Source: Gemmatimonadota bacterium (GTDB lineage: Bacteria > Gemmatimonadota > Gemmatimonadetes > Gemmatimonadales > GWC2-71-9). Taken from it: a stretch of 40,130 bases of DNA. The DNA lies in contig JANYKV010000091.1 in NCBI GenBank assembly GCA_025358055.1, positions 1 through 40,130 of the forward strand. The letters run 5' to 3'. Shown here piece after piece: positions 9,634-20,993 of the stretch (positions are counted from its first letter, which is position 1; the number at the start of each line of letters is the position of its first letter). Below the pieces are notes generated by a model that was given only the letters and a program-made list of their open reading frames with translations, was not told where the DNA came from and did no database searches. The translations under genes were made by a program, and so were the position numbers.

Positions 9634-11043
9634 TTAGAATTTCACAAGAATGGCGGCGTTGATCCGGCTTTCCGATTTCCGAAGGTCCGGTGTAAAGCCC
9701 GCGACCAAGGACCCTGGCGACCCGGTATTGCCTCCTAGGGGAGTGACGCCACCGGGTCCGGCGAAATAGGGCACGCTCGCCTGGCGATAGTTGAACTCCA
9801 ACCGGAAGGTGGCAAACTGTTCCGGCATGTAGTCAAACGTCACGGTGGCATCCCAGGCGTGAAACGGGTCACCGGGGTTCTCGGTGAAATACGGTGTGCC
9901 TGAAAAGGCCGTTGCGCCGTTGATCGGGGGCATGAGCACGAGGTAACGCCCCGGATTCGTCATGGCGCCACCGCCGACCGTCAGGCCCAGAAGGTCCTTG
10001 GCGAACCAGAACCGATTGTACACCATGAACCCCAAGAAGTTCTGCGCCGGGCCCCCGGCGGAACTCTTCGTGCAGCTGACGCCACCGCCGCTTTCACACC
10101 CCGCATCGACCGTCAAAGAAAACGCGCCCTTGCTCAATGGCTTAGTCGGTGCATCGAGATATTTGACCGTGACGCTGTTATCGCTATGCATCCGCCACCG
10201 GTCCGGGAGGCCCAACCAGTCGCGCCCGTAGTAGTTGTTGGAGAGGACCGACAGCGAGCCATTGGGGCGCCAAAGGATTTGCATGCCAACTCCAGGCGTC
10301 GAGTTGAACATCCCGTACGACTGCCACCCGTTGATGAGCCACGGTTCGATCTTGAGTTTGTCGCTCGGGAAAATCTGCACGCGCACGCCGTTGAAGAACC
10401 ATGGGGTGTTAGACGACACGTATGAAGGCTGGTAGGCCCAATTGTCGAAGTTGTAGTAGCTGAACAGCCCGACATAGGACATGAAAATCCCCGCCTCGAA
10501 ATTGATTCCGTTCATTTTGTCCCAGTGATAGCCGCCGTACGCCTCCGAGATGTAGCGGTAGGCGTCCGCGAGATTCCACTGACCTCGAGCCGGACTCGCA
10601 TCGTTCCGCGGGGTCATGGTCGAGTACATCCCGAACTGGGTCATGAGACGGCCGATGGCGTGGCCGGCGTGGAAGTCGCCTCCGATGCCCAGCTGCTGCA
10701 CCTGAAATTCGCTGGTCCGGCCGCTCTCCGAAGTCCCGATGAGCGTGTGATCCGCGGGATGGTTGAACTGCGCGATGTAGGTCGCGTCCACTCGGAACTC
10801 GCCCGTGAACACTTTGGACTCGAGCACGGAGTACTTTTGGCGGCTGTTGCCGTTGAGCCACGTGAAATCGGCAAACGCAAATGGATCTTTGGCGGCCGGG
10901 GTAGTATCGGCGTGGGCCACTACTATTGTGTCTTTTCTCGCTGGGCCACTCCGATCCTGCGAGGACTCGCTCGTTTGGGCGGCGGCCCCAACGGCGAAGA
11001 ACCAAGATCCAACCAGTGTCGCAATAGCCGCTCGCGTTCCCAT
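9634..11043 (-). CDS. Outer-membrane beta-barrel protein, putative porin (OmpL-like/BBP2 type)
   Basis: 469 residues. ATG at 11043 with GGAGG 4 bases upstream. A signal peptide of about 22 residues ends VGAAAQ. The mature chain alternates short aromatic-rich beta strands and loops (WLNGNSRQKY, QVQQLGIGGDFHAG, GINFEAGIFMSYVGLFSYYN, LNGWQ-like WLINGWQSYG, ATFRLEFNYRQASVPYF) and ends with INAAILVKF. A C-terminal Phe is the usual recognition signal for barrel insertion. Wording resembles the putative beta-barrel porin-2 family. Role inferred: a channel for small solutes across the outer membrane. It is divergent from kdpE across 332 bp, so co-control with potassium uptake is possible but unproven. 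A near-perfect palindrome lies 18 bases before its start codon. Confidence 0.82.
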   Translation of the reverse strand: MGTRAAIATLVGSWFFAVGAAAQTSESSQDRSGPARKDTIVVAHADTTPAAKDPFAFADFTWLNGNSRQKYSVLESKVFTGEFRVDATYIAQFNHPADHTLIGTSESGRTSEFQVQQLGIGGDFHAGHAIGRLMTQFGMYSTMTPRNDASPARGQWNLADAYRYISEAYGGYHWDKMNGINFEAGIFMSYVGLFSYYNFDNWAYQPSYVSSNTPWFFNGVRVQIFPSDKLKIEPWLINGWQSYGMFNSTPGVGMQILWRPNGSLSVLSNNYYGRDWLGLPDRWRMHSDNSVTVKYLDAPTKPLSKGAFSLTVDAGCESGGGVSCTKSSAGGPAQNFLGFMVYNRFWFAKDLLGLTVGGGAMTNPGRYLVLMPPINGATAFSGTPYFTENPGDPFHAWDATVTFDYMPEQFATFRLEFNYRQASVPYFAGPGGVTPLGGNTGSPGSLVAGFTPDLRKSESRINAAILVKF

Positions 11044-11375: not shown

Positions 11376-12092
11376 GTGCCCGTGGCACCCTCCACAGTTC
11401 TCGTGATCGATGATGAAATCCAGATTCGACGGGTGGTCCGCAACGCGTTCGCAAGTGGTGGCGTCCGCGTGTGCGAGGCCGATACTGCCGCGTCCGGCAT
11501 CGACCTCGCAGCGGCGGAGCGACCGGACCTGATCATTCTCGACCTCGGCCTCCCGGACCGTCCGGGCGTTGAGGTCTGTCGCGAGATCCGTAAGTGGTCC
11601 ACCGCTCCAATTCTCGTACTCTCCGCCCGGCATTCGGACGAGGAGAAGGTGGCGCTGCTGGACGCCGGGGCCGACGACTACGTCACGAAACCGTTTAGCA
11701 CTCCCGAGCTGCAAGCCCGGGCCCGGGCGCTGATGCGACGGACCCAATCCGCGGGAACCGGCGAAACCCGACTGACGATTGGGGGATTGGTCCTCGATTT
11801 CGAGGCGCGCATGCTCACTCGCGCGGGCGCTCCGGTCCACTTGTCGCCCATCGAATGGGAACTGCTGCGCGTCCTGATGACCAACGCGGGCCGAACCCTC
11901 ACCCACCAGCATCTCTTCACCCAGGTGTGGAGTGGCCGGAAGTTCGGCGATGCACAGCAATACTTGCGAGTCTACGTGGCGCACCTCCGCCGGAAAATCG
12001 AAGACAATTCGGTCCGGCCGCGCTATATCCTGACCGAACCCGGGGTCGGTTACCGGTTCGTCACCGCGACTGAACTCGACGCAAGCCCGTGA
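11376..12092 (+). CDS. kdpE: KdpE, OmpR/PhoB-type response regulator of potassium uptake
   Basis: 238 residues from GTG 11376 (a second GTG at 11382 is possible). The receiver domain (about 6-118) has acidic residues Asp12-Asp13-Glu14, phospho-acceptor Asp56 in LIILDLGLP, a Ser in the VLSAR segment and Lys105 in TKPFS. The C-terminal winged helix (about 132-230) reads LSPIEWELLRVLMTNAGRTLTHQHL, then YLRVYVAHLRRKIE and EPGVGYRF, as in KdpE. It should activate the kdpFABC promoter when phosphorylated. The stop overlaps the start of the next gene by four bases (GTGA), so the two are translationally coupled. Unlike in E. coli, the regulator lies upstream of the pump genes. Confidence 0.95.
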   Translation: MPVAPSTVLVIDDEIQIRRVVRNAFASGGVRVCEADTAASGIDLAAAERPDLIILDLGLPDRPGVEVCREIRKWSTAPILVLSARHSDEEKVALLDAGADDYVTKPFSTPELQARARALMRRTQSAGTGETRLTIGGLVLDFEARMLTRAGAPVHLSPIEWELLRVLMTNAGRTLTHQHLFTQVWSGRKFGDAQQYLRVYVAHLRRKIEDNSVRPRYILTEPGVGYRFVTATELDASP

Positions 12093-13594
12093 CCACCACG
12101 CGGGCCGTATGGCGCTGGGTCGCGTGGGCACTGATCCTCACGGCCGTCACCCTCCTGCTGCTCGGCTTTCGGGCCAGGCTCGACAAGGCCCATGTCGCGC
12201 TGCTGTACCTGCTGGTCGTGCTGGCGGGGAGCGTCAGCGGCGGACGCCAACTCGGCCTGGTCATTGCCGGGGTGGCCTTCCTGTTGTTCGATTGGCTCTT
12301 TCTGCTTCCCTATTACACCCTCGTCATCACGGATCCGCTCGATTGGCTGGTGCTAATCGCCTTTCTCGTGGTGAGCTTGGTCGCGACGCAAATCGTCCAT
12401 CGTTTACAAGGGGAGGCCAGCACCGCCCGTACGCGAGCAGCGGAGGTGGACCGGTTCGCCACGCTGGGCGCCGAGACGCTCAATGTGGCCCGGGCTGAAG
12501 AGGCGCTCGCCGCCATCTCCCACGTCATCGCCTCGACATTGCAAGCGAGAGCCTGTCGAATTCATGTAGTGGAGGAGGCGCAAGTTCGCGGGGAGGTCCC
12601 GGCCGGGTCTCTGGCGGTGTGGGTGGGACAACACGGACGAGCGGCAATCCGTCGCGCGGACGGAACCACACATCTCGCGGATTCCGCCGAGGTTCCGGCG
12701 GTCGACCTGAACACCGCAACCGCCATCTACCTGCCCCTGCAGGTCCGCGGTCGGATGGCGGGAGTGCTGGCGCTCGAGTACGACCACCCTTTCGACTTCG
12801 GCCCTGGCGAGCGGCGGTTTCTCACCGCGCTTGAGTACTACGCCGCCCTGGCGGTGGAACGAGTCCGGCTGGCGGCGGAGGCGGACCACGCGGAAGCGCT
12901 CCGGGAAGCCGGTCGGCTGAAGGACGCATTGCTGGCGTCGGTGTCACACGACCTCCGGACGCCTCTCACGACCATCAAAGCTCTCGCGCATGATATGGCC
13001 CGCGAGGATGAACGGGCCCGCGCGATCGAGGAAGAGGCTGATCGCCTGAACCGCCTTGTGGCAAACCTATTGGATCTCTCCCGGCTGCAAGGCGGGGCGC
13101 TATCTCTTTCGATCGCGCTCAACCCGGTGGATGAGCTCGTCGGAGCGGCCCTCCAACGAGTCTCTGGCGCCCTCGGTGGACGGCCCCTCGAAGTCCACTT
13201 GGAAGAAGGAGCGGCGCTACTGGTCGGCCGATTCGACTTCGCGCACACACTTCGGATCCTGGTCAACTTGATCGAGAACGCCCATAAGTATGCCCAGCCC
13301 GGCACCCCGGTGGATTTCTCTATCGCTCGGCTCGGAGACCGGATCCAGTTCTCCGTGTCCGATCGCGGCCCGGGTGTGCCAGCGGCGGAACGGCAAAGGA
13401 TCTTCGAACCGTTTTACCGCCCGGCAGGAAGCCTCCCGGACGTCGGCGGAGTGGGACTCGGCCTCTCCATCGCCCGGAAGCTCGCCGAGGCGCAACAGGG
13501 CTCCGTGGAATACCAACCCCGTCCCGGCGGCGGCAGCATCTTCATGCTGTCCCTCCCCGCTGTCGACCTCATTCCGCCTCCGGATTTTTTGTGA
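12089..13594 (+). CDS. kdpD: KdpD histidine-kinase half (DUF4118-GAF-HisKA-HATPase), lacking the KdpD/USP N-terminus
   Basis: 501 residues from GTG 12089, overlapping kdpE by 4 bases. It begins directly with the four-helix membrane domain of KdpD (DUF4118, about 8-103, with short loops and the LLPYYTLVITDPLDWLVL segment). A GAF domain follows (about 125-262), then HisKA with phospho-His287 in SVSHDLRTPLTTIK, and HATPase_c with N-box NLIENAHKYA, G1 DRGPGVP, F-box FEPFYR and G2 GVGLGLSIA. All kinase boxes are intact. Canonical KdpD is near 900 residues with an N-terminal KdpD and USP domain; that part is missing here and is encoded separately at 18823-19974. It should phosphorylate KdpE. Not a fragment by decay: it has a proper start, coupling to kdpE and an intact frame. 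Confidence 0.95.
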   Translation: MTTTRAVWRWVAWALILTAVTLLLLGFRARLDKAHVALLYLLVVLAGSVSGGRQLGLVIAGVAFLLFDWLFLLPYYTLVITDPLDWLVLIAFLVVSLVATQIVHRLQGEASTARTRAAEVDRFATLGAETLNVARAEEALAAISHVIASTLQARACRIHVVEEAQVRGEVPAGSLAVWVGQHGRAAIRRADGTTHLADSAEVPAVDLNTATAIYLPLQVRGRMAGVLALEYDHPFDFGPGERRFLTALEYYAALAVERVRLAAEADHAEALREAGRLKDALLASVSHDLRTPLTTIKALAHDMAREDERARAIEEEADRLNRLVANLLDLSRLQGGALSLSIALNPVDELVGAALQRVSGALGGRPLEVHLEEGAALLVGRFDFAHTLRILVNLIENAHKYAQPGTPVDFSIARLGDRIQFSVSDRGPGVPAAERQRIFEPFYRPAGSLPDVGGVGLGLSIARKLAEAQQGSVEYQPRPGGGSIFMLSLPAVDLIPPPDFL

Positions 13595-13619
13595 CTTTTT
13601 AGCGCTTTGTCCGTGCGCT

Positions 13620-13652
13620 TTTATGCGATCTTCACGCCGTTCACGCTATGCT
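13620..13652 (+). promoter_or_regulatory. Candidate KdpE-controlled promoter region ahead of the pump genes
   Basis: The 100-bp gap between the kinase gene and the first small pump gene is AT-richer than its surroundings. It contains TTTATG (13620-13625), 5 bp, TTCACG (13631-13636), close to the E. coli KdpE box TTTATA-5 bp-TTTACA. A second TTCACG lies at 13640-13645, a 9-bp direct repeat step. TATGCT at 13647-13652 is a possible -10. The motif and layout are seen; use as a promoter is inferred. Confidence 0.4.
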
Positions 13653-13694
13653 GTGCCAAGCGCTGAATGGTGTTTGGCTTTCTGGGAGGCACGC

Positions 13695-13811
13695 ATGCTC
13701 GACCTGCTCTATGTCTTGGGGACTGTGGCCTTTTTCGCGGCCATGCTCGCGTATGTGCGCGGCTGCGAGACCTTGGGCCGCGAAACCGAGGCGGAAAGGC
13801 AGTCGAAGTGA
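13695..13811 (+). CDS. Small membrane peptide upstream of kdpF
   Basis: 38 residues starting MLDLLYVLGTVAFFAAML. The ATG at 13695 has GGGAGG (13684-13689) with ideal spacing, which strongly supports translation. One TM helix (about 3-21) is followed by a charged tail (CETLGRETEAERQSK). Its TGA stop overlaps the GTG start of kdpF (13808) by four bases, so it is coupled to the pump operon. Similar one-helix peptides ahead of kdpF occur in other bacteria, to my recollection, without an assigned role. It may be a second KdpF-like stabilising subunit or a leader whose translation controls kdpF. Too short for most gene finders. Confidence 0.75.
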   Translation: MLDLLYVLGTVAFFAAMLAYVRGCETLGRETEAERQSK

Positions 13812-13897
13812 GTCTCGATACACTCATCGCCGGACTGCTAGTCGTCGCGTTGCTGATCTATCTGATCTACACCCTGCTGCGGCCGGAGAAGTTCTGA
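13808..13897 (+). CDS. kdpF: KdpF, small subunit of the potassium-transporting ATPase
   Basis: 29 residues from a GTG at 13808: VSLDTLIAGLLVVALLIYLI and then YTLLRPEKF. This is the typical KdpF pattern: one TM helix followed by a short tail with the conserved LLRPE(K/R)F ending. KdpF sits at the KdpA/KdpB interface and stabilises the complex. The start overlaps the upstream small gene by 4 bases (GTGA), and one base separates its stop from the kdpA ATG. Confidence 0.92.
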   Translation: MSLDTLIAGLLVVALLIYLIYTLLRPEKF

Positions 13898-13898
13898 T

Positions 13899-15614
13899 AT
13901 GTCGCTCAATGGGTGGCTCCAAATCATCTTCTATTCGGCGGTGTTGCTCCTGCTCACCAAGCCGATGGGGATCTACGCCCTCAAGGTATACGATGGCTCG
14001 ATCGGATGGCTCCGACCGATTGAGCGACTGTTCTATCGCATAGCCGGGGTCGACGCGGAAGAGGATCAGCACTGGACTCGCTACGCCGGCGGGCTGTTGC
14101 TCTTCAGCCTGGCCTCGATGCTGCTCACCTATCTCGCGCTCCGCCTGCAACACCTCCTGCCCCTGAATCCCCAGAAGCTCGGCGCGGTCCCGGACCGGCA
14201 GGCGTTCGAGACCGCAGCGTCGTTCACGACCAATACGAACTGGCAGTCGTACGTCCCCGAAACAACCATGTCGTATTTCTCGCAGATGACCCAATTGGCG
14301 TTTCACAATTTTGCCTCAGCGGCGGCGGGGATGGCCGCCGCGGTTGCGTTGGCACGCGGGATCGCTCGGCGAACAGCGGGTGGACTGGGGAATTTCTGGG
14401 TCGACCTAGTGCGGGGGACGCTATACCTCTTCCTCCCGCTTTCGTTGATTTGGGCGCTTTTCCACGTGCAGCAGGGCGCGATTCAGAATTTCCTACCCTC
14501 CCTGGATGTCCACACGTTGGAGGGCGGCAAGCAAACGATTGCACTGGGCCCGGTCGCGAGCCAGGAAGCGATCAAGGAGCTGGGAACCAACGGAGGCGGA
14601 TTCTTCAACGCGAACTCGGCGCATCCGTTCGAGAACCCCACCCCATGGACCAATTTCCTCCAAATGCTCGGAATCTTCCTGGTGCCTGCTGGGCTCACCT
14701 GGACCTACGGACGAATGGTTCAAAAACCGGCGCATGGTTGGGCGCTGTGGATCGCGATGTTCGTGTTGTTCTTGGGCGGAGTGACCACCAGCTACTGGGC
14801 GGAGGCGCGAGGCAACCCCATTCACGCCGCGCGCGGGATCGACGTGGTGGCCTCGGCGGCCCAATCCGGTGGCAACATGGAAGGGAAGGAAGTTCGCTTC
14901 GGCATCGCGAATTCGGTGCTCTATGCAACGATTACGACCGACGCCTCCTGCGGATGTGTGAACAGCATGCACGATTCCTTCACGCCCTTGGGTGGTATGG
15001 TACCGCTCATCAACATGCAGCTTGGGGAGCTGATCTTCGGCGGCGTTGGGGCGGGACTCTATGGGATGCTGATGATGGTGCTCGCAACGGTGTTCATCGC
15101 CGGACTCATGGTCGGTCGCACTCCGGAATACTTGGGCAAGAAAATCCAAAGCCGCGAGATCCGGATGGTCATGCTCTACGTGCTCGTGTTCCCATTGGTG
15201 ATCTTGGTCCTCACGAGCGTGGCCGTGATCGCGCCCGAGGGCCTCAAGGGCCTGAACAATGCAGGCCCCCACGGGTTCTCGGAAATCCTCTACGCCTTCA
15301 CGTCCACCCCGGCGAACAATGGGAGCGGGTTCGCGGGCATCACCGGCACCACCTATTTCTACAACACGTTGTTCGGCATCGCGACCCTGATCGGCCGTTT
15401 CGCCATGATCGTGCCGATGCTTGCCGTCGCGGGGTTCCTGGCCGAGAAGCGGATTGCGCCAGAGTCTGCGGGCACGTTTCCGGTGACCACGCCGCTCTTT
15501 GTCGTACTCTTGATCAGCGTCATCCTGATCGTCGGCGCTCTCACCTTTTTCCCCGCGCTTTCGCTCGGCCCGATCGTCGAGCACCTGCTCATGGGTGCGG
15601 GGAGGCTCTTCTAG
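13899..15614 (+). CDS. kdpA: KdpA, potassium-binding channel-like subunit of the Kdp ATPase
   Basis: 571 residues, close to the usual 560. It has ten or so TM helices and the four selectivity-filter loops of the superfamily of K+ transporters, all recognisable: TNTNWQSY (about 111-118), GTNGGGFFN (about 229-237), TTDASCGCVNSMHDS (about 346-360) and NNGSGFAG (about 473-480). KdpA selects K+ from the periplasm and passes it through an intersubunit tunnel to KdpB. ATG at 13899 directly follows kdpF. The residues lining the filters look standard, so high-affinity K+ uptake is the expected role. Confidence 0.98.
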   Translation: MSLNGWLQIIFYSAVLLLLTKPMGIYALKVYDGSIGWLRPIERLFYRIAGVDAEEDQHWTRYAGGLLLFSLASMLLTYLALRLQHLLPLNPQKLGAVPDRQAFETAASFTTNTNWQSYVPETTMSYFSQMTQLAFHNFASAAAGMAAAVALARGIARRTAGGLGNFWVDLVRGTLYLFLPLSLIWALFHVQQGAIQNFLPSLDVHTLEGGKQTIALGPVASQEAIKELGTNGGGFFNANSAHPFENPTPWTNFLQMLGIFLVPAGLTWTYGRMVQKPAHGWALWIAMFVLFLGGVTTSYWAEARGNPIHAARGIDVVASAAQSGGNMEGKEVRFGIANSVLYATITTDASCGCVNSMHDSFTPLGGMVPLINMQLGELIFGGVGAGLYGMLMMVLATVFIAGLMVGRTPEYLGKKIQSREIRMVMLYVLVFPLVILVLTSVAVIAPEGLKGLNNAGPHGFSEILYAFTSTPANNGSGFAGITGTTYFYNTLFGIATLIGRFAMIVPMLAVAGFLAEKRIAPESAGTFPVTTPLFVVLLISVILIVGALTFFPALSLGPIVEHLLMGAGRLF

Positions 15615-17684
15615 ATGCCCATATCCAAACGGCCTCTCTTCGATCCTCCGATCGTCCTGCGCGCCCTCTCCGAGGCTTTCGGCAAGCTCTACCCGCGTCA
15701 CATGGTGCGGAACCCGGTGATGTTCGTCGTGTTGGTTGGGAGCGCCTTCACCACCGCGCTCCTGCTTCGCGACGTGATCGCTGGCCATGGAGGTATCGGC
15801 TTCGCGCTCCAGATTACGCTGTGGCTCTGGTTTACGGTGTTGTTTGCCAACTTCGCGGAAGCCATGGCCGAGGGACGTGGCAAGGCCCAGGCGGACGCGC
15901 TCCGGAAAAGTCGGCAGGAGACCCAAGCGAAGCGGCTCGTCGAACCCCAGGACAAAGATCGCTTTGAGACGGTCGCCGCGAACGACTTGCGCGCGGGCGA
16001 TGTCGTGCTCTGTATTCCCGGCGACGTGATTCCCGGGGACGGCGAAGTCATCGGCGGGGTCGCCTCAGTGGATGAGTCGGCGATCACTGGTGAGTCCGCG
16101 CCGGTGGTTCGGGAGTCCGGCGGCGATCGATCCGCCGTCACCGGCGGGACGAAGGTTCTCTCCGACTACCTCGTCATTCGGATCACGGCGAACCCCGGCG
16201 AGACCTTCCTGGATCGCATGATCGCGTTGGTCGAGGGGGCGAAGCGGCAGAAGACGCCGAACGAGATTGCGCTCACCATTCTGCTGTCCGGTCTCACCAT
16301 CATTTTCCTCCTCGCGGTGGCGACGCTTCAGCCCTTCGCGATCTATAGCGGCGGGCCGGTGGCGATCCCGGTGCTCGTGTCCCTCCTCGTCTGCCTCATC
16401 CCCACGACGATCGGTGGGCTGCTCTCCGCCATCGGTATCGCCGGGATGGATCGAATGATCCAGCAGAACGTGATCGCTACGAGCGGCCGGGCCGTGGAAG
16501 CCGCCGGCGACGTGAACACTTTGCTGCTCGATAAGACGGGCACCATTACGCTCGGCAATCGCCAGGCGGTGGAGTTCCATCCGGTGCAGAACGTCACGGT
16601 GGAGGAACTGGCGAATCGCGCGCAACTGGCGTCGTTGCCGGATGAGACCCCCGAAGGGCGGAGCATTGTAGTACTCGCCAAGCAACAATTCAATCTCCGC
16701 GGCCGTGCGGTCAGCGAGACCCCGGAGCACCAGCAAATGGCCTTTGTCCCGTTCTCGGCGGCCACGCGAATGAGCGGCGTCAACATGGGGGCCAGGGAGC
16801 TGCGAAAGGGTGCGGGCGACGCGATCGTGCGCTGGGTGCGCGAGGGTGGATGCGAGATACCCAGGGAGATCACCGAAATCACGGAGCGGATTGCCCGCGA
16901 GGGCGGGACCCCACTCGTCGTGGCGGAACGACAGGACGGCCATGTGCGTGTGCTCGGCGCGGTGTACCTCAAGGACATCGTGAAGGGCGGCATGCGCGAA
17001 CGATTCGACCGGCTGCGCGCCATGGGGATCCGGACCGTGATGATCACCGGGGACAATCCCCTCACCGCCGCGGCCATCGCAGGCGAGGCGGGGGTCGATG
17101 ACTTCCTGGCCGAGGCCAAACCGGAGGACAAGCTCGCCCTCATCCGCCGGGAGCAGCTCGGTGGACGCCTCGTCGCAATGACCGGCGACGGCACCAATGA
17201 TGCTCCAGCGCTCGCTCAGGCCGATGTCGGTGTGGCGATGAACACCGGCACGCAAGCGGCCCGCGAGGCGGGAAATATGGTCGACCTCGATTCGAACCCG
17301 ACCAAACTCATCGAGATCGTCGAAATCGGGAAACAGCTCCTGATCACCCGCGGCTCGCTCACTACTTTCTCCATCGCGAATGACGTGGCCAAATACTTCG
17401 CGATCATTCCAGCGATGTTTGCGGCCACCTACCCGGCGCTCAACGCACTCAACGTGATGCGGCTCCACTCGCCCGAGTCGGCCATCCTCAGCGCAGTCGT
17501 TTTCAACGCGTTGATCATCATCGCGCTGATTCCCCTCGCGCTTCGAGGGGTGCGTTACCGCCCGGCCGGGGCGGCCGCCATCCTGCGCCGCAACTTTGTG
17601 GTCTACGGCATCGGTGGTGTGCTCGTGCCGTTCCTCGGCATCAAAGCACTAGACGTCCTGCTCGTCCTCCTCAGGTTGGTGTGA
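15615..17684 (+). CDS. kdpB: KdpB, P-type ATPase subunit of the potassium pump
   Basis: 689 residues, normal length. ATG at 15615 abuts the kdpA stop and has GGGGAGG upstream. P-type motifs are in order: TGES in the actuator domain (158-161), the PTTIGG loop of TM4 (about 263-268), phosphorylation site DKTGT (Asp306), a [10 protein letters not shown] nucleotide-binding region, TGDN in the P domain and [22 protein letters not shown]. Ser161 in TGES corresponds to E. coli Ser162, reported as an inhibitory phosphorylation site at high K+; its retention matters for the split KdpD seen in this operon. The 3' end overlaps the kdpC start by four bases. Confidence 0.98.
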
Positions 17685-18304
17685 CCATGTTCCGCAAACA
17701 GATTCGCCCCGCGCTCGTCCTAACCCTGCTGCTCTGTCTCGTGACTGGAGCGATCTATCCCGGGGTTGTAACCGCGTTGGCCCAGCTTCTCTTTCCTAAG
17801 CAGGCGAACGGCTCGCTGGTAACGGTGAACGGGCAGGTGGTTGGGAGTGAGCTGATCGGCCAAGGGTTCACGCAGCCGTATTACTTCCATCCGCGGCCCT
17901 CCGCGGCGGGCAACGGCTACGACGCCGCGGCGTCCAGCGGGACCAACAAAGGGCCCACCGACCTCAACCTGGCGGACACGCTGATCGCGGCGAAGGTCGC
18001 GGAGGTCGTGACGCAAGACGGCGCACAACTGGGCGCCATTCCGGCGGACATGGTGACCAGCTCGGCATCCGGCCTCGACCCGCACATCTCGCCCGCCAAC
18101 GCCGCCTTACAGGTGGTGCGAGTCGCCCGGGCTCGCAATGTGAGCGAAGCCGCCATCAAGAATTTTCTGGCCCGGCACGTGGAGGGTCGTCAGTTCGGCT
18201 TCTTGGGAGAACCACGGGTCAACGTGCTCCTGCTCAATATCGCGCTCGATAGCGTTCTGCCCCGCACCGATTCAGCCGCCCACCAATCGGGCGCGCGACG
18301 ATGA
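17681..18304 (+). CDS. kdpC: KdpC, accessory subunit of the potassium-transporting ATPase
   Basis: 207 residues from GTG 17681 (GTGA overlap with the kdpB stop); an ATG at 17687 is an equally possible start. There is one N-terminal TM helix (about 10-35) and a periplasmic domain with the family wording LITGAIYP-like [49 protein letters not shown] and the C-terminal LNIALD. KdpC caps the KdpA entrance on the periplasmic side and is thought to raise K+ affinity. The tail past [10 protein letters not shown] is about 15 residues longer than usual and runs into the next gene with an ATGA overlap. Confidence 0.97.
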
Positions 18305-18813
18305 CGAGGCTGCGTCGGCTTGCCCTCACGGTTGTCGTCCTCGTTCCCCTCGTGGCCTGCCAGGAGGACATGCAGGCATGGCGGGCGAGGTTGGCGGCCC
18401 CGAACGTCCAGCGGCTCCTCGGGCTGTGGGAGGTTCGGATGCGGCTCGATCGGCGGGAGACATCTCCCGATACCTCGAGGGTTGCACCGGAACTCATTCG
18501 AGTCGGCGAGATTGCGATCACGTTGAATGAGAACCGCCTCAACGCCCCTGGCTCCGACGGTCCGCCGATGCTCTTCGGCACGTTCGACATCGACTTTCGG
18601 CGCCTCGATCTCCGAGTCGCGAATTACACCGGGGTACCTGAGTTAGTGGGCCGAGTTAGCGGAGATTCGATTCTCTTCAAGCTGGCGCCCGAGGCGGATC
18701 TTCCGGTGGCCCTACGTGGAGCATGGTCCGGCGACTCAGTTGCAGGCCGGTGGACCGCACACCAGCGAGCCGGAATCGACGCGTCCGGAGACTTCACTAT
18801 CCGTCGGCGATAG
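18301..18813 (+). CDS. Small lipoprotein of unknown function embedded in the kdp operon
   Basis: 170 residues. ATG at 18301 overlaps the kdpC stop by four bases, so it is translationally coupled to the pump. A lipoprotein signal has lipobox LVAC (Cys20), giving a periplasmic or outer-membrane lipoprotein. The mature part starts with a helix (QAWRARLAAPNVQRLLGLWEV) and continues as a beta-rich domain with repeated G-x-(W/D) strands (GTFDIDFRRLDL, GRVSGDSILFKL, GAWSGDSVAGRW). This is similar in style to small calycin-like or lipocalin-like folds, which I cannot confirm. I do not recognise the family. It lies between kdpC and the KdpD N-terminal gene, so a part in sensing or stabilising the Kdp system is plausible but only inferred from position. 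Confidence 0.85.
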   Translation: MTRLRRLALTVVVLVPLVACQEDMQAWRARLAAPNVQRLLGLWEVRMRLDRRETSPDTSRVAPELIRVGEIAITLNENRLNAPGSDGPPMLFGTFDIDFRRLDLRVANYTGVPELVGRVSGDSILFKLAPEADLPVALRGAWSGDSVAGRWTAHQRAGIDASGDFTIRRR

Positions 18814-18822
18814 ATTCTTGCC

Positions 18823-19974
18823 ATGGTCGACGCGCCTCTCACCCCAACGCCCGAACCCTCGTTCGCCGACCTCCTGCGAACGCGTGAGCGCGGCAAGCTC
18901 AAGCTCTATATCGGATCGGCTGCGGGAACAGGCAAAACTTACCGGATGCTCAACGAGGCCCACCAATTGCGCCAGCGTGGCGTCGATATCGTGGTGGGTT
19001 TCGCGGAAACCCACGGGCGGCCTGAGACCGAGGCGCAGATTCGTGACCTGGAGACCGTTCCACGGCGCCGCATCGAGTATCGGGGACGGATTCTTGAAGA
19101 GATGGACGTCGAGGCGATCATCGCGCGCCAGCCCCAGGTGGCGCTCGTCGACGAATTGGCGCACACGAATGTGCCGGGCTCGCAGCGCGCCAAACGGTGG
19201 GAGGACGTCGTTGCGTTGCTCGATGAAGGCATCAGCATCATCTCCGCCGTGAACATCCAGCACCTCGAATCGTTGAACGATGTGATCCAAAAGGCCCTGG
19301 GCGTTACCGTCCGGGAGACCGTGCCGGACTGGGTCGTGATGATGGGGGACCAGGTCATCAACCTCGACATCTCGGCGGAGGACCTGCGCCAACGTCTTAT
19401 CGAAGGCAAGATCTACGCACCAGACAAGATCCCCCTCGCGCTGAATAACTTCTTCACCGAAGAAAACTTGACCACGCTTCGGGAACTAGCTCTCCGCGAG
19501 GTTGCCAGCTCGGTCGATCGCTCCCGCGAAGAGACATTTTCACGACCGGACCGGCGGACGGTCGACCGGGTCCTGGTGGCGATGTCGAGTCATCCCGAAT
19601 ACACGGCGATTCTCCTGCGGAAGGCGAGCCGTATCGCCGGCCGGCTTAATCCGGATTGGTATTGCGTCTACGTCCAAACCGCGAGCGAGAGCGCCAGCCG
19701 CATCGACGCGACCGTGCAACGCAAGCTGGTGGAGAACTTCCAGAGAGCCCAAGCGATGGGGGCCGAGGTCGTCAAATTGCAATCGGAGGATGTAGCGGGC
19801 GCCATCGTGCGGTTTGCGAGGGAAAAGGGCGTGACGTTAGTCATCGCGGGGCAGTCAAGGCGATCGTTTTGGCAGCATTTCACCAGTGGCTCGGTGATTG
19901 ACCGGCTGATTCGCAACACAGAAGGCATCGACGTGCTGATCGTCCCCCTGGAACGCGAGAAGGACCAGCCGTGA
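18823..19974 (+). CDS. kdpD: KdpD N-terminal half (KdpD domain plus USP domain) as a free-standing soluble protein
   Basis: 383 residues. The KdpD domain (about 20-235) has Walker A GSAAGTGKT (31-39), the E-T-H-G-R segment (FAETHGRPET), a Walker-B-like VALVDELAHTNVPGS and the family stretch ISAVNIQHLESLNDVIQ. A universal-stress-protein domain follows (about 248-378: RVLVAMSSHPEY, VTLVIAGQSRRSFWQH, GSVIDRLIRN, IDVLIVPLE). No TM segment is present. In standard KdpD these domains precede the membrane region; here the kinase half is a separate gene at 12089-13594. In E. coli this N-terminal ATP-binding region is reported to have atypical serine-kinase activity on KdpB; in Firmicutes the USP domain binds c-di-AMP. 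The stop overlaps the next start by four bases (GTGA). Confidence 0.95.
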   Translation: MVDAPLTPTPEPSFADLLRTRERGKLKLYIGSAAGTGKTYRMLNEAHQLRQRGVDIVVGFAETHGRPETEAQIRDLETVPRRRIEYRGRILEEMDVEAIIARQPQVALVDELAHTNVPGSQRAKRWEDVVALLDEGISIISAVNIQHLESLNDVIQKALGVTVRETVPDWVVMMGDQVINLDISAEDLRQRLIEGKIYAPDKIPLALNNFFTEENLTTLRELALREVASSVDRSREETFSRPDRRTVDRVLVAMSSHPEYTAILLRKASRIAGRLNPDWYCVYVQTASESASRIDATVQRKLVENFQRAQAMGAEVVKLQSEDVAGAIVRFAREKGVTLVIAGQSRRSFWQHFTSGSVIDRLIRNTEGIDVLIVPLEREKDQP

Positions 19975-20993
19975 GGGTTTCGGAGCGCCTATTTCTGGCC
20001 GTGGCTCCCGCCATCGTCGGCCTCTTCACGGTCGCGGCGCTGGCGTATTGGGGGAACTATCATCGGGCCGCCCCGGAGTGGGTTGTGGTGGCGGCCACAG
20101 TCGGCACCGTCGGCTCGCTCGTCCTCGCCTGGCAAAATACCCGGTATGTTGCCCGGCGCATCGAGCGGCTGGCAGGGCCGGGGGAACGCAGGCACCGGCG
20201 CATCTCACCGGTCGATGCCGTCCGTAATGCGGCGATCCCGCGCCCCGGCACGTCAGCCGACGAGCTCGATTCGCTGGAACAGGTCGTGGATCGTCTGAGC
20301 GGGGCCGTCGCCGCCGCCGAAGCGGACAGCCGTCGGCGAGAGGCCGAGGCGGGTGAGCGGGTGCAGGAATACGCTGCCCTCCTCGCCGAGGCGTCGTCGG
20401 CCGTTTCGCGCCAGCTTGACGAAGTAAAACTCCCGCTCCATATCCTCCTCCAGAACCATTTTGGCGAGTTGAACGAGAATCAGGAGGAGATGCTCGAGGC
20501 AGCCCGCCTTGCGGCTGACGAGGCAGCCACCGAGCTCCGCCGGTTGAAGGAGATCGCCGACTTAGACCGGGGGGCACTGAGATTCCGGCGGGAGCCGGTG
20601 CGGATCGGCGAATTGTTGAAGACCCTGCGCCCCCAATTGGAGGCCGATGGCCGCCGAATTGGCGTCCAAGTGACCCTCGATGTCGCGCCGGGGCTTCCCC
20701 GGGTCGCCGGCGATCGGGTGCGGCTCCAACAGGCGCTCGAACTCCTGCTTCGGTTTCTCGTTCGTCACGCCGCCCCGGAGAGCACCGTCGGTGTTTCGGC
20801 GCTTCTGGAAGGAAGGAAGGTGATCCTGACCATTGTTCACGGCGCAATTCCCATCATCGGCGCGGACATCGCGTTGGCGCGGCGAGTCATTCTCGCTCAC
20901 GGCGGCGCCATGGAGCAGTCGGGAAAGACCACGCTCGTCAGCCTGCCGGTGACGGGACCCAGCGTGCCGAATCTGCCGGACAAGAGCGTTTGA
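19971..20993 (+). CDS. Membrane-anchored degenerate histidine kinase (pseudokinase) coupled to the KdpD N-half
   Basis: 340 residues from GTG 19971. Two TM helices (about 8-28 and 38-55) with a short periplasmic loop, a HAMP-like/coiled linker, a HisKA-type dimer hairpin (about 135-200) and an HATPase-like region (about 208-325). The H-box position is degenerate: aligning Pro155-Leu156 with the SHELRTPL consensus puts Asp150 where the phospho-His should be. The N-box reads ELLLRFLVRHA without the essential Asn. The DxGxG G1 box is absent, and only a vestige of the G2 helix (IALARRVILAHGG) remains. It is therefore unlikely to autophosphorylate. Its four-base overlap with the KdpD N-half gene suggests the two proteins act together; it could supply the membrane anchor that the soluble half lost. 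Confidence 0.88.
   Translation: MRVSERLFLAVAPAIVGLFTVAALAYWGNYHRAAPEWVVVAATVGTVGSLVLAWQNTRYVARRIERLAGPGERRHRRISPVDAVRNAAIPRPGTSADELDSLEQVVDRLSGAVAAAEADSRRREAEAGERVQEYAALLAEASSAVSRQLDEVKLPLHILLQNHFGELNENQEEMLEAARLAADEAATELRRLKEIADLDRGALRFRREPVRIGELLKTLRPQLEADGRRIGVQVTLDVAPGLPRVAGDRVRLQQALELLLRFLVRHAAPESTVGVSALLEGRKVILTIVHGAIPIIGADIALARRVILAHGGAMEQSGKTTLVSLPVTGPSVPNLPDKSV

Follow-up and report, generated by a model that had tools for sequence, protein, structure and literature searches.

The window considered here, a stretch of 40,130 nucleotides from contig JANYKV010000091.1 of a Gemmatimonadota bacterium, contains a kdp cluster encoding the potassium pump KdpFABC and its regulators. KdpD is encoded in this cluster as two chains, a histidine kinase (HK) upstream of the pump genes and a short protein with a KdpD domain and a Usp domain, KdpD(N), downstream of them; the gene following kdpD(N) encodes a protein with the HK fold but without catalytic residues (pseudo-HK). 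By analogy with work on KdpD from E. coli and D. geothermalis, the KdpD/Usp chain would be a serine kinase for KdpB, and the upstream HK and KdpE would be responsible for transcriptional control. We put at about one in two the probability that the cluster is a two-chain KdpD with a catalytically dead, HK-fold partner that anchors and gates the KdpD/Usp chain predicted to inhibit the pump. The gene order, the two chains, the lost motifs, the exclusive pairing with short KdpD among 298 genomes, the gene overlap, the natural fusions, the purifying selection and the failure to find a diadenylate cyclase (DAC) are all matters of observation. The two-chain KdpD is not itself new; the conserved pseudo-HK is the new part.

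The pseudo-histidine kinase and its pairing with short KdpD

KdpD was surveyed in 298 genomes of the phylum (genomes are designated G and loci L). Matches were obtained in 49 genomes, four of which fell below the cut-off and were left out. Judging by the fetched neighbourhoods, 35 of the resulting 45 genomes encode a short KdpD (the window's genome included) and 10 a full-length KdpD, with one of the latter (G043) classed from a reading frame truncated at the end of its contig and from its position in the tree; the other 253 genomes have no KdpD above the cut-off. A profile of the pseudo-HK (A1), built from kdp-linked rows, was used for genome-wide searches of the same genomes, with no more than seven candidates scored per genome. 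It yielded 32 matches of at least 194 bits, followed by a gap down to 100 bits, the level of ordinary HKs. The pseudo-HK is present in 32 of the 35 genomes with a short KdpD, in none of the 10 with a full-length KdpD and in none of the remaining 253.

A set of 39 named loci was found by means of the pseudo-HK rather than KdpD, and overlaps partially with these genomes (L108, for example, is G190). The kdpD(N) gene lies directly upstream of the pseudo-HK gene in 38 of these loci, and the contig is cut in the 39th. With distances taken from the start codon nearest to the kdpD(N) stop, the two genes overlap by 4 nt at 27 of the 38 junctions, by 1 nt at three and by 8 nt at two; they abut at one, lie 31–33 nt apart at three and are fused at two. 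Almost all the loci (37/39) carry Gemmatimonadota names, L114 being filed as 'bacterium' and L089 (PMHN01000128.1) as Gammaproteobacteria; the presence of kdpD(N) and a pseudo-HK in the latter record may reflect misbinning or transfer. In G168 (L062:9626-10779), kdpD(N) is in two pieces upstream of an intact pseudo-HK, which may be a sequencing error.

The KdpD-Usp-pseudo-HK fusions of L063/L108 and L110 are 95% identical. Querying proteins with the pseudo-HK portion of one fusion gave five hits among 5058 candidates, and four of the five carry KdpD, Usp and the pseudo-HK: P0123 and P0124, from the lineage of L063/L108/L110, and P0125 and P0127, which are 44% and 38% identical, respectively. 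The fifth, P0126, was dropped as a fusion, as the Walker A part is missing and the middle reads like a frame shift. Such fusions thus seem to occur in about three lineages, the query counted. For the pseudo-HK family as a whole, 7992 candidates were scored, of which 1079 proved related at E ≤ 0.001, although the weak end of this set may include active HKs.

The AlphaFold2 model of the pseudo-HK (mean pLDDT 84.8, pTM 0.64) consists of a transmembrane (TM) hairpin, a DHp helical hairpin and an alpha/beta CA domain. The TM helices span residues 3–31 and 36–68, with a very short loop between them, and the fold matches HK structures mostly over residues 119–330. In profile comparisons, DivL came first (2e-14, against 5e-9 for the next match), with RetS close. 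The phospho-acceptor column, defined by alignment with active kdp-linked HKs, holds a serine in the window and a histidine in none of the 32 rows from the phylum. Histidine is also absent from this column in all 38 of the 39 named loci in which the anchor motif was found, and in 118 of the 120 listed homologues with the motif (the window's own included), the 120 being the best-scoring homologues, with a leaning towards forms with a TM hairpin. The positions equivalent to N393 and N397 of the HK family hold other residues, DxGxG is absent and the ATP lid is deleted. The initial annotation had described this downstream gene as a pseudokinase; its catalytic residues are indeed gone, and it proved to be the unusual part of the cluster. 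His157 was considered as a phosphorylation site and rejected: it is near-invariant, but does not align with the phospho-acceptor position of the kdp-linked HKs from G208 and Bacteroides, and is replaced by Tyr or Gln in some rows.

The most conserved stretch of the protein is the tip of the DHp hairpin, with the motif LPLHILLENxFGxLNxNQEE (mean entropy 0.76 over residues 151–180 in 36 non-redundant rows). Mean entropy in the same rows is 1.12 for the TM hairpin, versus 1.91 for the CA domain, the least conserved folded part. Eight positions are invariant in 19 pseudo-HK rows, all of them between residues 159 and 178. The ratio of nonsynonymous to synonymous substitution rates (dN/dS) in three close pairs is 0.116, 0.244 and 0.276 for the pseudo-HK, and 0.091, 0.061 and 0.143 for KdpD(N). 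The pseudo-HK is under purifying selection, and is a constrained protein without the residues for catalysis.

Layout of the kdp cluster and the two chains of KdpD

All parts of the cluster, from kdpE through to the pseudo-HK gene, lie on the + strand. The features of the cluster, and of the porin gene beside it, are as follows (aa, amino acids; ORF, open reading frame):

11376..12092, +: kdpE, response regulator, 238 aa, Response_reg and Trans_reg_C domains
12089..13594, +: HK chain of KdpD C-terminal type, 501 aa, DUF4118-GAF-HisKA-HATPase_c, with DUF4118 at residues 10–116
13695..13811, +: small ORF, 38 aa, with a single hydrophobic stretch (from its translation), overlapping the kdpF start
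13808..13897, +: 29 aa, C-terminus LLRPEKF (from its translation), which we take to be kdpF from its position and from KdpF sequence features
13899..15614, +: kdpA (PF03814, 777 bits; TIGR00680)
15615..17684, +: kdpB, with TGES Ser161 (TIGR01497, 1069 bits)
17681..18304, +: kdpC (PF02669, 237 bits)
18301..18813, +: lipoprotein-like ORF, 170 aa, called by eye from its start
18823..19974, +: kdpD(N), KdpD domain and Usp, 383 aa, predicted serine kinase for KdpB (PF02702, 303 bits; Usp, 47 bits)
19971..20993, +: pseudo-HK, 340 aa, TM hairpin, DHp and CA, GTG start
9634..11043, −: BBP2 (OmpL-like) porin gene beside the cluster (PF07642, 150 bits)

Overlaps of 4 nt are found between kdpE and the HK gene, kdpB and kdpC, kdpC and the lipoprotein-like ORF, and kdpD(N) and the pseudo-HK gene. 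The best NCBIfam match of kdpE is the KdpE model NF007820, at 246 bits, under the cut-off of 325. The upstream HK has no KdpD domain but has its active-site motifs, and the residues H287, N393, N397, D425, G427 and G429 are invariant across 10 aligned rows. In KdpD(N), PF02702 (residues 23–231) is followed by Usp (248–375), and the TM/GAF/DHpCA kinase part is lacking. Its best NCBIfam match is NF038185 (KdpD_non_kinase), at 392 bits over residues 16–374, the family cut-off being 550 bits. It keeps, by alignment, Walker A (G-x5-GKT), the equivalents of Walker B D109/E110 and an arginine equivalent to E. coli R190; the W39 equivalent is a tyrosine, as in all four aligned short KdpDs (Bacteroides, Deinococcus, Trichormus and Allomeiothermus). 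Against the KdpD model NF007793, the HK aligns with residues 405–882 and the KdpD/Usp protein with residues 6–378, so that the two chains jointly cover most of one KdpD. The two matches are partial, at 208 and 333 bits, and neither reaches the 1123 bits of this full-length equivalog.

This layout, with kdpE and the HK upstream of kdpFABC and the 383-aa KdpD/Usp chain downstream, is that of the initial annotation, and the alignments agree with it that Walker A is intact and the TGES Ser161 of KdpB kept. It had named an assembly join of two loci, or a full-length kdpD elsewhere in the genome, as grounds for abandoning the split. An assembly artefact is ruled out because the gene order recurs in relatives: in 21 of 31 fetched relatives with a pseudo-HK, kdpA is preceded by an HK gene on its own strand (with kdpE beyond the stretch in three of these); the HK is divergent in two, absent within 2.9–4.3 kb in three and cut off by an edge in five. 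A second, full-length kdpD is likewise ruled out, the 93% complete genome (4.43 Mb in 193 contigs) containing exactly one PF02702 match. The proposal that transcriptional and post-translational control are physically separated holds insofar as the two activities are assigned to two chains, with the serine-kinase residues and target serine kept, but this arrangement had already been published (PMC11018627).

The lipoprotein-like ORF has no Pfam or NCBIfam match, and has a 42% identical relative in G012 (L032:10531-11343). It occupies the slot that holds a porin in many relatives; of the 30 relatives showing both kdpC and kdpD(N), 23 have a porin-like ORF between the two. The porin genes at kdp loci suggest an outer-membrane route for K+.

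Proposed role, candidate inputs and origin

The signal that tells the KdpD serine kinase to inhibit the pump was stated in 2024 to be as yet uncharacterized (PMC11018627). For the cluster described here, low K+ would lead the upstream HK and KdpE to switch on the cluster, as in the E. coli KdpD/KdpE system, and high K+ would lead the KdpD/Usp chain to inhibit KdpFABC through phosphorylation of Ser161 (following PMC11018627). The pseudo-HK would likely bind the KdpD/Usp chain via the tip of its DHp hairpin (residues 151–180), its TM hairpin holding the chain at the membrane beside KdpFABC, and would gate the chain by relaying a signal from the membrane or the pump. Tethering would fall to the covalent link in fused forms, and in genomes without a DAC, the pseudo-HK could be the input that replaces cyclic di-AMP (c-di-AMP). 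As the serine kinase, the HK and the candidate input are separate proteins, any one of them can be supplied or left out independently. We are rather more tentative, at somewhat less than even odds, about the broader idea of a phylum-level invention, in which an HK devoid of catalysis became a dedicated controller of the KdpD serine kinase, sensing the membrane or the pump and free of both c-di-AMP and a K+-sensing domain of its own.

Several observations weigh against the pseudo-HK as an anchor or gate of the KdpD/Usp chain. Three genomes with a short KdpD (G019, G208 and G001) have no pseudo-HK, and the pseudo-HK is therefore not essential to the serine kinase; in G019, another gene comes after KdpD(N). 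The full TM hairpin is missing from seven of the 32 pseudo-HKs, and also from the G190 fusion (computed) and from P0124, P0125 and P0127 (by eye), so membrane anchoring is not general. The AlphaFold2 model of the natural fusion P0001 is poor (pLDDT 60, pTM 0.34) and says nothing about packing. In fold comparisons, DivL and RetS come out level with ordinary active HKs, making the likeness to regulatory HKs weak evidence. Among four short-KdpD loci from other phyla (Deinococcus radiodurans, Bacteroides, Trichormus and Allomeiothermus), an HK directly follows KdpD(N) in Bacteroides only; a 507-aa protein without a Pfam match takes this place in D. radiodurans. An HK of the upstream type was matched near full length in five of eight searched pseudo-HK genomes, and was shorter or fragmentary in the other three (G010, G087 and G291). 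Finally, 18 of the 32 genomes with a pseudo-HK have a DAC, and c-di-AMP may be an additional input there.

The five near full-length matches, with three shorter or fragmentary, would also suit a different partner for the pseudo-HK. RetS acts on GacS, and DivL on CckA; the pseudo-HK could, in the same way, form heterodimers with the active upstream HK and tune the phosphorylation of KdpE. DHp is a dimerization fold, and the closest solved structures include DivL and RetS. Nevertheless, we consider this unlikely, at perhaps one chance in five, given that the pseudo-HK gene overlaps kdpD(N) or is fused to it, with no such link to the HK gene in the loci read, and that the kdpD(N)/pseudo-HK pair is kept in genomes in which the HK gene is divergent or unlinked. 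Moreover, the pseudo-HK profile misses the window's own HK, yet scores other kdp-linked HKs at 53–100 bits.

A somewhat less probable alternative is that only the known two-chain KdpD is at work, with c-di-AMP controlling the KdpD/Usp chain via Usp, as in D. geothermalis, and the pseudo-HK incidental. Both the two-chain KdpD and the stimulation of a short KdpD by c-di-AMP have been published, the short KdpD of D. geothermalis responding to c-di-AMP and not to K+ (PMC11018627), and the 18 genomes with a DAC gene would be compatible with such control. No PF02457 match for a DAC was found in this 93% complete genome, in a search for which the control gave matches in 11 of 14 genomes. In all, no DAC was found in 14 of the 32 pseudo-HK genomes, this one included, and some of these genomes are near-complete (G012, 98%; G027 and G029, 100%). 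A DAC is present in all three genomes with a short KdpD and no pseudo-HK, in which c-di-AMP may therefore be active, and in four of the 10 genomes with a full-length KdpD. The Usp domain of the window has the E. coli-type stretch RxxxR...WxxVY and lacks SxS-X20-FTAxY, the c-di-AMP motif of Usp in S. aureus (PMC4686210), which may not be general. Nor does the pseudo-HK look incidental, given its presence in 32 of 35 genomes with a short KdpD and its fusions. Control by c-di-AMP is unlikely in the 14 genomes because no DAC was found; another input must therefore act in them if the serine kinase is regulated, and the c-di-AMP model leaves these genomes with a short KdpD unexplained. The pseudo-HK appears to be the best candidate for this input, by position, fusion and co-occurrence. 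Loss of the TM hairpin was seen in seven of 18 genomes with a DAC and none of 14 without (Fisher p = 0.010, with only three independent pairs on starred branches); a link between hairpin loss and DAC is not claimed, the independent events being too few.

The initial annotation also saw the two chains as a natural dissection of the tandem kinase, and this is doubtful. If a full-length KdpD had recently been split in this lineage, this would fit the fact that the upstream HK matches the KdpD model in its C-terminal half, and that full-length KdpDs occur in the phylum. A quick tree of the N-terminal part of KdpD was built from 48 rows, two of them long, with 30 of the 32 genomes having both a short KdpD and a pseudo-HK (G168 and G291, with only pieces of KdpD(N), were left out). 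In this tree, all the short KdpDs, including those of Bacteroides, Deinococcus, Allomeiothermus and Trichormus from other phyla, lie on one side (SH-aLRT 99), set against the ten full-length Gemmatimonadota KdpDs on a separate branch (SH-aLRT 96). The rows linked to a pseudo-HK form one group (98), within which only G019 has no pseudo-HK. The KdpD(N) of the window is also less identical to local full-length KdpDs (39–43%) than to other pseudo-HK-linked ones (63–77%). These results speak for KdpD(N) as an old stand-alone lineage rather than the product of local fission, even though a clade of all the Gemmatimonadota rows was not rejected in the approximately unbiased (AU) test (p = 0.061), and we regard recent fission as improbable.

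Full-length KdpDs are found beside pumps close to that of the window in L048, L050 and L074 (G038, G043 and G283; KdpB 76–78% identical), and the KdpA proteins of G038 and G043, adjoining a full-length KdpD, are 75–80% identical to the window's; it is as if the type of regulator had been exchanged beside a similar pump.

The best match to the pseudo-HK profile outside the family in the phylum is an HK of G001 encoded 0.9 kb upstream of kdpA (100 bits). In direct scoring, the kdp-linked HKs of G001, G208 and Bacteroides finegoldii scored 99.9, 66.7 and 52.8 bits, versus 35.3 bits for a full-length KdpD; no hit was returned for the window's own HK, for E. coli KdpD or for another full-length KdpD. 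All three of these kdp-linked HKs carry SHxLRTP or SHELKTP, and their HisKA and HATPase_c domains are complete. As they outscore full-length KdpD, the ancestor of the pseudo-HK was probably an HK already associated with a short KdpD, as in Bacteroides. That the pseudo-HK is a decaying relic of such a former partner, kept by operon position only, would fit the loss of its kinase motifs and the finding that, of the active-looking relatives tested, those nearest to it are HKs linked to kdp (G001, 100 bits; G208, 67; B. finegoldii, 53), but is very improbable in the face of dN/dS values of 0.12–0.28, the invariance across 19 rows of eight positions lying between residues 159 and 178, and repeated fusion with KdpD.

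E. coli EIIA-Ntr acts on KdpD. In G001 (L075:9597-11258), the short KdpD is fused to PTS_EIIA_2, giving a KdpD-Usp-EIIA protein of 553 aa that could be another way to provide a short KdpD with an input.

Comparison with known systems

The two-chain layout belongs to a kind already described, as Silberberg et al. reported in 2024 that serine-kinase and HK activities lie on separate chains (PMC11018627). Their paper also cites Alicyclobacillus, in which kdpD is split, and Deinococcus and Anabaena, whose regulatory systems are separate. The window has the same chain domains, the serine-kinase chain downstream of the pump, and the catalytic residues and KdpB serine kept; it differs in having a conserved dead HK after the serine-kinase chain and no DAC found. 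The words 'gemmatimon' and 'pseudo' are absent from the main text of that paper (PMC11018627). Among described families, NF038185 (KdpD_non_kinase) is the closest to KdpD(N), yet the match lies under its cut-off.

The Bacteroides-type cluster (F-A-B-C-x-KdpD(N)-HK, L117) has the same order as the window, with an HK directly after KdpD(N). The record concerned (NZ_OY725961.1, Bacteroides finegoldii) is 14.5 kb long, is filed as a plasmid, and holds the whole kdp cluster, KdpD(N) and an intact HK. This HK has SHELKTP, N and G boxes, HAMP and PAS, and looks active, whereas that of the window does not. The pseudo-HK also resembles the BceS-type intramembrane-sensing HKs, which have two TM helices with a very short loop and a gene beside a transporter, but are active and partnered with ABC transporters.

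No title or abstract concerning a pseudo-HK adjoining KdpD was found in literature searches (open-licence PMC text). DivL has been termed a pseudo-histidine kinase (PMC9430884), and a structure of the RetS-GacS co-complex exists (title of 7n0e). DivL (PDB 4q20) and RetS (6dk7, 7n0e) share the HK fold with the pseudo-HK, with about 14–22% identity in the structure matches, but have other operons and partners, and the partner proposed here is a serine kinase rather than an HK. The pseudo-HK represents a large group of dead HKs for which a partner gene is defined. If the proposed partnership is correct, it would be, as far as the literature searches show, the first pseudo-HK to have a serine kinase as its client.

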